DNA of 64,000 nucleotides, taken from NCBI GenBank assembly GCA_947645965.1, contig CANSES010000002.1, positions 1 to 64,000 of the forward strand, read 5' to 3'. Position numbers and translations under genes: made by a program. Of the stretch, positions 61,743 through 63,702 are shown piece by piece. Source of the stretch: an uncultured Enterorhabdus sp. Its GTDB lineage: Bacteria > Actinomycetota > Coriobacteriia > Coriobacteriales > Eggerthellaceae. The notes below the pieces were generated by a model, which ran no database searches, was not told where the DNA came from, and saw nothing but the letters and a program-made list of their open reading frames with translations. The number at the start of each line of letters is the position of its first letter. Within the stretch, counting starts at the first letter, position 1.

Positions 61743-62177
61743 ATGAAGAGAACGCACCTGACAACCCTGGCCGCCGCCTTCGGCACCTTGGCGCTGACCC
61801 TGGCGCTGGCCGCCTGCGCACCCCAGCAAGGCCCTGCGGGCGAAGGCGCCGACAGCGACGGAGACATAGCCCTGGCCGCCACCGGCTCGCTAGCCGCATT
61901 GCACCCCGACGGGCAGCTCGACGGCATCGAGGAGGTCACGAACAAGCTGTGCCTCAGTTGTCATCCCCGAGCCACCATTGAAAAGGCCAACGAGGGGTAC
62001 GGAGGGCACCCCGACTTCAACCCCCACAAAGCCCATCTGGCCGCCGGAGACTGCACCTCGTGCCACTCCCTCGAGGGCACCTCGGTGATGAGCTGCAACG
62101 AATGCCACAACGCCCCCTTACCCGACGGCTGGGAGAGCGCACCACGAGGCTCCGGTCCCCTGCACGCCCTGTTCTAG
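61743..62177 (+). CDS. Triheme c-type lipoprotein cytochrome
   Basis: A 144-residue lipoprotein: signal peptide with lipobox LAAC (Cys25), then three haem motifs CLSCH (70-74), CTSCH (104-108) and CNECH (118-122), with further histidines (e.g. HKAH) as likely distal ligands. The C-terminal CNECHNAPLPDGWE resembles CNECHDLTLPEGWE of the pentaheme protein at 19282, suggesting common ancestry. It should pass electrons to the flavoprotein; no membrane quinol-oxidising partner is adjacent, so another subunit must link it to the pool. Confidence 0.88.
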   Translation: MKRTHLTTLAAAFGTLALTLALAACAPQQGPAGEGADSDGDIALAATGSLAALHPDGQLDGIEEVTNKLCLSCHPRATIEKANEGYGGHPDFNPHKAHLAAGDCTSCHSLEGTSVMSCNECHNAPLPDGWESAPRGSGPLHALF

Positions 62178-62484: not shown

Positions 62485-62614
62485 ACAAAAAGAAGCGGCC
62501 CGGCGGAGGGGGCCGCCGGGCCAGAAGGAGGGGGGATGCGACTCTCTCAGGAGTCGCTTTCTGCTTTTCAGAGACAAAGCAGGCAAGTGATCGGAGGGGG
62601 TTGTCTCACTTGCT
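62485..62614 (-). ncRNA. Candidate C-rich small regulatory RNA (~130 nt)
   Basis: On the minus strand an extended -10 TGTTATACT (62629-62621) precedes a start near 62614. Four hairpins follow: GCAAGTGA/TCACTTGC (62583-62613), CTGCTTT/AAAGCAG (62561-62582), GCGACTC/GAGTCGC (62538-62557) and a 10-bp GGCCCGGCGG/CCGCCGGGCC (62497-62522) followed by GCTTCTTTTTG, a strong intrinsic terminator. Exact CCCCCUCC copies lie in the first loop, in the single strand before the terminator and across the terminator loop. The middle one continues to CCUCCUU, matching the 16S anti-Shine-Dalgarno. This resembles C-rich sRNAs that block ribosome-binding sites. No protein is encoded. It is not SRP RNA, tmRNA or RNase P RNA by any motif I can see. 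Confidence 0.6.
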
Positions 62615-62779
62615 GGGCTCAGTATAACAACCACCCTTGAATTCCCTATGACGCGAAGGTGGTGAACTTGTGGATTCGCAGGGTCATCGTTAAGCAATTT
62701 GTCAGATTTGAGAAGAATTCCGACCAGCCATAATGAGGCGTCAAAGCGTTATGATACCACGCTGCTGACGAGGTGTCAC

Positions 62780-63592
62780 CTACCCGTTCTTGCGCTGGAA
62801 GAGAATGTTGTTTGTCTCCAGCCAGCTCTCCACGGTGCCGGTGTCGAAGCCGTCGGCTGGATCGATCACGAGCGCGTACATCTCCTCCTCGCGCAGCACC
62901 GCGTCCAGCGCGTCGGTCAGCTGGATCTCACCGCCCACGCCGGGCTCTCCGTCGGCCAGAAGCTCCATCACGCGCGGACTCAGCAGGTAGCGGCCGAACA
63001 CCGCCAAGTTGCTCGGCGCGTCCTGAAGCGCCGGCTTCTCCACGAGCGAGTCCACCTTCCACACGTCATCGGCCACGGCCTCACCGGCAATGACGCCGAA
63101 GCGGCTCACCTGGTCGTCGGGCACGGGCATGACCGCGATGACGCTCGCCCCGCCGTGGGCATCCGACACCGCCTTCATGGCCGGCAGCATTTTGTTGTCG
63201 GGCACGAGCACATCGCCCAGCAGCACGTAGAAGGGCTCGCCGGCGCAGGCCTCGGCGGCGCAGTGCACCGCATGCCCCAGACCCAGGGCCTCCTCCTGGT
63301 ACACGTAGCTCACGTTGTAGTTGCCCACGGCCTCCACGGCATCGGCGTAGGCGTCCTTGCCGCGCTCGCGCAGCAGCGCCACCAGCTCGGGATTGGGGGT
63401 GAAGTGGTCCTCGATGGCCTTCTTCTCGCGGCTGTTGATGATGATGACCTCGTCGGCGCCGGAGGCCAGGCCCTCCTCTACCACATACTGGATAGCGGGG
63501 CGGTCCACCACCAAAAGCATCTCCTTGGGCTGGGCCTTCGTGGCCGGCAGAAAGCGGGTACCCAGGCCCGCTGCGGGAATCAGTGCCTTCAT
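62780..63592 (-). CDS. galU: UTP-glucose-1-phosphate uridylyltransferase
   Basis: Makes UDP-glucose for cell-surface polymers. The 270-residue protein has the nucleotidyltransferase motif IPAAGLGTRFLPATKAQPKEMLLVVDRPAIQYVVEEG, then LGLGHAVHCA, VLLGDVLVP, SLVEKP and GGEIQLTDALDAVL. It is somewhat shorter than typical GalU (~290) at the C-terminus. ATG 63592 has AAAGG upstream. Confidence 0.93.
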   Translation of the reverse strand: MKALIPAAGLGTRFLPATKAQPKEMLLVVDRPAIQYVVEEGLASGADEVIIINSREKKAIEDHFTPNPELVALLRERGKDAYADAVEAVGNYNVSYVYQEEALGLGHAVHCAAEACAGEPFYVLLGDVLVPDNKMLPAMKAVSDAHGGASVIAVMPVPDDQVSRFGVIAGEAVADDVWKVDSLVEKPALQDAPSNLAVFGRYLLSPRVMELLADGEPGVGGEIQLTDALDAVLREEEMYALVIDPADGFDTGTVESWLETNNILFQRKNG

Positions 63593-63702
63593 CGAGCGCC
63601 TTTCTCGTCGGTCGGCGCGACCCGGCCTCGCCGGCGTCGCCCCGATGTCTCGCAATTTCATCGCGGCCCATGATACTACAGTCCACGCGGCCGCAGGTCG
63701 GC

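Follow-up and report, generated by a model that had tools for sequence, protein, structure and literature searches.

A conserved, multi-copy family of predicted C-rich small RNAs with a putative response-regulator promoter in relatives of one gut-bacterial family

In several Firmicutes, small RNAs (sRNAs) such as RsaE and FsrA carry C-rich motifs that meet the Shine-Dalgarno (SD) sequences of mRNAs (excerpts of PMC4132741). The LhrC1-5 sRNAs of Listeria monocytogenes exist in several copies, require the two-component system LisRK for expression and bind the SD region, and their C-rich motif occupies three kinds of position, a hairpin loop, a single strand and the terminator loop (excerpts of PMC4132741). 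The csRNAs of Streptococcus, which belong to the CiaRH regulon, are also present in several copies; their promoters contain TTTAAG-N5-TTTAAG repeats at 11-nt spacing with the last repeat about ten bases before the -10, and an unpaired region of the RNA is complementary to the SD (excerpts of PMC3091779). The 6C RNA is named for two stem-loops with six cytosines each (excerpts of PMC4046766). Among the matches listed from open-licence PMC papers, none described an sRNA of Coriobacteriia.

Here, we analysed a stretch of 64,000 nucleotides from an uncultured Enterorhabdus sp. (the window), which most likely makes a small regulatory RNA common to many relatives within one family of gut bacteria. 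The locus is a compact minus-strand transcription unit between galU and the 3' end of a cytochrome c3-type gene, with the following features.

62780-63661, minus strand: galU
62636..62674, minus strand: four promoter half-sites at 11-nt spacing, TCCACAA (62674-62668), CCAC (62662-62659), CATAGG (62650-62645) and TTCAAG (62641-62636), from CA peaks and an ungapped alignment
62621..62629, minus strand: extended -10 TGTTATACT, from sequence; TATANT in 28 of 28 upstream regions, themselves anchored on TATANT
62487..62614, minus strand: predicted small RNA of about 128 nt, with its start placed by the -10; fold z -6.68; covariance-model matches in relatives
62583..62613, minus strand: hairpin 1 with CCCCCUCC in the loop (62600-62593), from fold and conservation
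62561..62582, minus strand: hairpin 2, CUGCUUU/AAAGCAG, mostly kept as sequence, from fold and alignments
62538..62557, minus strand: hairpin 3, with the top covariation in the sequence-only alignment, from covariation and RNAalifold
62523..62537, minus strand: single strand AUCCCCCCUCCUUCU with the second CCCCCUCC (62534-62527), from motif conservation
62487..62522, minus strand: intrinsic terminator with a 10-bp stem (62522-62513 with 62506-62497), the third CCCCCUCC (62512-62505) and a U-rich tail, from fold and conservation
61743-62174, plus strand: cytochrome c3-type gene (PF14537)

Read along the minus strand, the four half-sites are followed by TGTTATACT, the likely start A62614, hairpins 1-3, the single strand and the terminator, and the next gene downstream in the window is convergent. 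In other words, by sequence, a predicted structured non-coding RNA is flanked by its own promoter and an intrinsic terminator. This agrees with a preliminary description of the locus, which had proposed a minus-strand unit with an extended -10 (at 62629-62621), a start near 62614, which the position of A62614 relative to the -10 fits, and a terminator ending in CTTCTTTTTG; the GC-rich terminator stem is followed by the tail CUUCUUUUUG. The same description counted four short hairpins plus a terminator; there are four in all, made up of three hairpins and the terminator hairpin. The octamer CCCCCTCC does occur three times on the minus strand, once each in loop 1, the single strand and the terminator loop, except that two bases of the third copy belong to the terminator stem. 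As described, the middle copy extends to CCUCCUU, the general anti-SD core of 16S rRNA.

The predicted fold has an energy of -57.1 kcal/mol compared to a shuffled mean of -34.67 (sd 3.36; z -6.68), and 0 of 200 shuffles reached the native value. Three of the nine minus-strand CCCCTCC sites fall inside 96 nt, the sole such cluster when both strands of the window were scanned. Octamer abundance was dropped as evidence by itself because its 6 sites in the window equal chance (6.07 expected).

Of the relatives identified with GalU as query, Adlercreutzia hattorii was the nearest (92% identical). A covariance model (R1) based on the window plus A. hattorii gave matches at E <= 0.01 in 66 of the 138 genomes of the family, which from the named loci and general taxonomy is presumably Eggerthellaceae. 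A second model (R2), built from 46 matches, matched 104 of the 138 genomes at E <= 0.001, while 34 gave no R2 match; two to four copies were present in 56 of the 104. Tandem copies are frequent, as in one genome (G076) with three inside 727 bases. In a class-wide draw, 101 of 396 genomes matched at E <= 0.01, and 11 of these were genomes not met in the family search (nine at E 1.4e-5 or worse; best 9.2e-10). A phylum-wide draw gave matches in 10 of 296 genomes, nine of them family members and one a weak match outside the family (E 0.0055). Because searches over more than 40 genomes were run with stricter filters, these genome counts are lower bounds. Phage records gave no match.

The preliminary description had named a lack of conservation of the hairpins and C-rich motifs in related genomes as one refuting condition; both are conserved. 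In a sequence-only alignment of 32 copies, out of 76 distinct copies, 83.5% of cells pair compared to 75.2% when shuffled and 37-47% when slid, and 99 two-sided cells were counted against 33.3 in shuffled alignments, with 0 of 500 shuffles reaching this number. In a model-fitted alignment (45 distinct rows), which flatters structure and in which hairpin 2 gains from register shifts, 31 of 32 pairs show two-sided change, and pairing holds in 97.6% of cells (80.5% shuffled). By the sequence-only count, hairpin 2 has one pair with two-sided changes and shows little covariation because its sequence is kept. Hairpin 1 is just 64.6% paired in this alignment, which we attribute to a misaligned 3' arm. 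RNAalifold applied to the same 32 copies recovered hairpin 3 and the terminator unprompted and did not recover hairpins 1 and 2. The C-rich motif is conserved at unpaired positions: of the 45 distinct copies, 40 retain CCCCTC in loop 1, 44 in the single strand (CCCCTCCTT in 41) and 38 in the terminator, and 35 have it at all three positions.

Judged from its sequence, the promoter is conserved as much as the RNA itself. Among 28 upstream regions, which remained from 46 after dropping those at least 80% alike and which were anchored on the -10, CA peaks lie at -45, -34, -23 and -12 from the -10, exactly 11 nt apart, with the half-site consensus TTCACAA, CCAC, CATA and TTCAAG; the last half-site lies in the -35 region, nine bases ahead of the -10. 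An ungapped alignment accommodated 37 of 50 dissimilar promoters, and the 13 left out include copies in which the element is absent or degraded (e.g. L090, L091, L135 and L137) and a few in which it is partial; the L136 copy has no TATANT at the position searched. The 11-nt spacing and the position of the last repeat resemble the CiaR-activated csRNA promoters and point to a putative response regulator of the OmpR/PhoB type.

A profile of the element gave 35 matches at E < 1e-4 in 16 genomes. Every one immediately precedes an sRNA copy, the profile itself having included many of these promoters or close relatives of them; thirteen weaker matches lay elsewhere (E 0.0125 to 0.45). The core pattern matched 26 times in 16 genomes compared to once for the reversed pattern. 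Of these matches, 16 belong to sRNA copies; the other 10 fall at two further places, where three half-sites are oriented opposite to the following gene. The first place is upstream of a gene for a PrsA/SurA-type foldase lipoprotein after typA in seven genomes (L213, L214, L216, L225-L227 and L229), with an eighth by profile; Pfam and NCBIfam confirmed the foldase at L214 and typA at L212, and the remaining loci were judged from translations. The second is between infA and rpmJ in three genomes (L215, L222 and L223), with a fourth by profile. These loci are possible further members of one regulon, and a foldase among them would fit a regulator of envelope or secretion stress. The copies L090, L091 (the second copy of A. 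hattorii) and L136, all of which adjoin the gene for an S-methyltransferase-like protein, have a different promoter, and sibling sRNAs may therefore respond to different signals. By eye, these three promoters have a short CAAG/CTTG-type inverted repeat right before the -10 in place of the half-sites.

Repeats at 11-nt spacing also bring the PHO boxes of actinobacteria to mind. No clear four-half-site element was present in the two readable regions upstream of PstS-like genes (L162 and L164). Separately, the PstS-like ORFs (L155-L164 and L167-L173) match TIGR02136 (PstS_2) in two pieces with the order swapped, so that profile positions of about 160-294 precede 25-160 along the gene, as is readable in L162 and L164; the substrate-binding protein looks as if it were circularly permuted.

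Based on these data, we suggest that the locus is probably a gene for a trans-acting sRNA that is controlled by an OmpR/PhoB-type regulator through the four half-sites and uses CCCCUCC to block the SDs of several mRNAs. In this model, the response regulator would bind the four half-sites spaced by 11 nt and activate the sRNA gene. The sRNA would expose CCCCUCC in loop 1, the single strand and the terminator loop, and, from its complementarity and by analogy to LhrC and the csRNAs, CCCCUCC would pair with extended SD sites such as AAGGAGGGG and thereby block translation start of several mRNAs. The strand with its kept promoter and terminator, the covariation and the kept C-rich motifs all support the anti-SD sRNA proposed at the outset, the blocking of SDs being what we infer. 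What was computed directly is the layout of the gene, its conserved structure and promoter, the kept motifs and the copy number, and the result goes beyond the preliminary description in that the RNA is family-wide, multi-copy and preceded by a regulator-type promoter. Points against the model are the modest target evidence described below and the 34 family genomes that gave no R2 match.

What might such an sRNA act on? Across nine genomes, the pattern AAGGAGGGG-N4-9-ATG has 4 to 21 matches in each, compared to 0 to 5 for the reversed pattern; four of the matches are sRNA copies read in antisense. In four genomes, we compared 36 plausible ORFs behind AAGGAGGGG sites with 47 behind AAGGAGGTG, presumably the form nearer to the 16S complement. 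By Pfam, and counted from the best 25 of 48 and the best 25 of 38 families (the commonest per set), respiratory classes account for 11 of the 36 (FAD_binding_2 five, molybdopterin two, Fe-S two, cytochrome c552 one and nitrate-reductase-delta one) compared to 4 of the 47 (molybdopterin two, DmsC two), and ribosomal S6, L10 and L24 are frequent in the AAGGAGGTG set. This lean (one-sided p 0.011, Fisher; 0.017 with relatives merged, 10/33 vs 2/30) is suggestive only because the respiratory classes were defined after the lists were seen. Genes with AAGGAGGGG sites appear to lean modestly to anaerobic respiratory enzymes and a DcuC-family transporter, weakly so in Adlercreutzia, the group of the window.

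Of the best 30 matches to the DcuC-family transporter (PF03606, E 5.6e-82; NCBIfam YfcC under its cut-off), 26 have GGAGGGG at the SD, with diverged flanks. By comparison, GGAGGGG is present in 0 of 37 distinct regions upstream of galU, 0 of 29 upstream of the S-methyltransferase-like gene and 0 of 12 upstream of the dehydrogenase gene, control sets that exclude nrdD and prsA, whose start codons were misassigned, and in which the kept rows were read by eye. Among further DcuC-family matches (27 of 32, the remaining five being distant paralogues that were left out), just 7 of 27 have GGAGGGG, and A. hattorii and the genomes nearest to it by sRNA have GGAGGGA or less at this SD. A link between the sRNA and the DcuC-family mRNA is, therefore, plausible in part of the family. 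Against the link, in three genomes in which no sRNA was found, the SD is still GGAGGGA in two and neither form in one. Duplex energies were not used as evidence for targets; the program ignores intramolecular folding and returned long, implausible duplexes. Within the window, a gene for a LuxR-type membrane regulator (PF00196; 58169-59602, minus strand), beside the flavoprotein gene, has AGGAGGGG three bases before an ATG; with GGAGGAGGGGTCC before the ATG, it is a possible candidate target.

A repeated short loop motif also marks RNAs that titrate proteins. The C-rich loops could in that case sequester an RNA-binding protein, for instance a cold-shock or KH protein, with no pairing to mRNA, and it would fit this explanation that no one target is conserved family-wide. 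We consider it unlikely, since the motif complements an extended SD and is presented in the manner of LhrC, where pairing was shown (excerpts of PMC4132741).

In 20 neighbourhoods clustered together with the window, the recurrent neighbours were the S-methyltransferase-like protein (PF02574; 12), a D-2-hydroxyacid dehydrogenase (11), NrdD (9) and GalU (6), the names of the NrdD and dehydrogenase clusters resting on one or two members apiece. The preliminary description had placed the sRNA beside a respiratory cassette and galU. Both adjoin it in the window, and galU recurs as a neighbour; the cassette, which consists of a TAT-type flavoprotein (PF00890) and the cytochrome, does not: a related flavoprotein is present in 3 loci, including the window, and is not among the most recurrent neighbours. 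By a crude ORF rule, an ORF on the same strand starts within 250 nt downstream in 24 of the 76 distinct copies, and at L123 and L125 the sRNA terminator lies ~20 nt before the start of the D-2-hydroxyacid dehydrogenase gene, where read-through could give a leader. A leader or attenuator acting in cis on a downstream gene would account for such cases, yet as a reading of the RNA in general it is quite improbable: in 52 of the 76 copies there is no such ORF, the next downstream gene in the window is convergent, and among the four loci with the RNA near galU (L001-L004) its orientation relative to galU is reversed in L004.

Bacteria of the Eggerthella, Gordonibacter and Adlercreutzia type are known for their respiratory reductases. 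Extending the model of a trans-acting sRNA, we speculate, tentatively and with considerable doubt, that one envelope- or secretion-stress response regulator drives sibling anti-SD sRNAs that lower secreted anaerobic respiratory reductases and the DcuC-family transporter, and that respiratory and xenobiotic-reducing capacity is in this way set post-transcriptionally. If the target lean holds, stress sensing would be tied to the respiratory reductases of these gut bacteria. Because the RNA is conserved, multi-copy and sharply defined, it offers a direct handle on RNA regulation in them.

Rfam, which includes LhrC, gave no gathering-score match in the window; the best sub-threshold match at the sRNA locus had E 0.17 and was on the other strand, and 12 member loci gave none at E <= 0.1. 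The RNA is, therefore, not recognized by the LhrC covariance model, and it seems to form a new RNA family with a known, LhrC/csRNA-like mode of working, called new because no Rfam model matches. RsaE and FsrA differ in scaffold and, by the Rfam scan, in family. With its C-rich hairpin loops in an actinobacterium, the RNA could be thought a Coriobacteriia form of 6C RNA, and we regard this as very improbable. In addition to the empty Rfam result in the 12 loci, the 6C model (RF01066) gave six matches at E <= 1 in 13 genomes, none over the cut-off and none at an sRNA locus, with a C. glutamicum control that was weak and also fell below the cut-off; two inspected matches were single hairpins. A chance cluster of hairpins or a non-transcribed repeat, with which the chance frequency of the octamer in the window would agree, is hardly credible given the covariation, the kept promoter and terminator and the family-wide spread.

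Overall, the design principles of this locus resemble those of described systems in part. Like 6C RNA, it is actinobacterial with C-rich loops; unlike it, 6C RNA consists of two stem-loops with runs of C (excerpts of PMC4046766). As in the csRNAs, there are multiple copies, an 11-nt spacing and a last half-site close to the -10 (excerpts of PMC3091779). However, here there are four half-sites with the consensus TTCACAA...TTCAAG in place of the CiaR-type TTTAAG-N5-TTTAAG repeats, C-rich sites are also present in loops, and sequence and scaffold differ. LhrC shares the several copies and a C-rich motif in the same three kinds of position (excerpts of PMC4132741). In the RNA described here, by contrast, three hairpins precede the C-rich single strand, the host is of another phylum, no Rfam model matches, and the motif is CCCCUCC compared to CUCCC/UCCC in LhrC (excerpts of PMC4132741). 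If our model is correct, the LhrC/csRNA design would have a counterpart on an unrelated scaffold in Actinomycetota.
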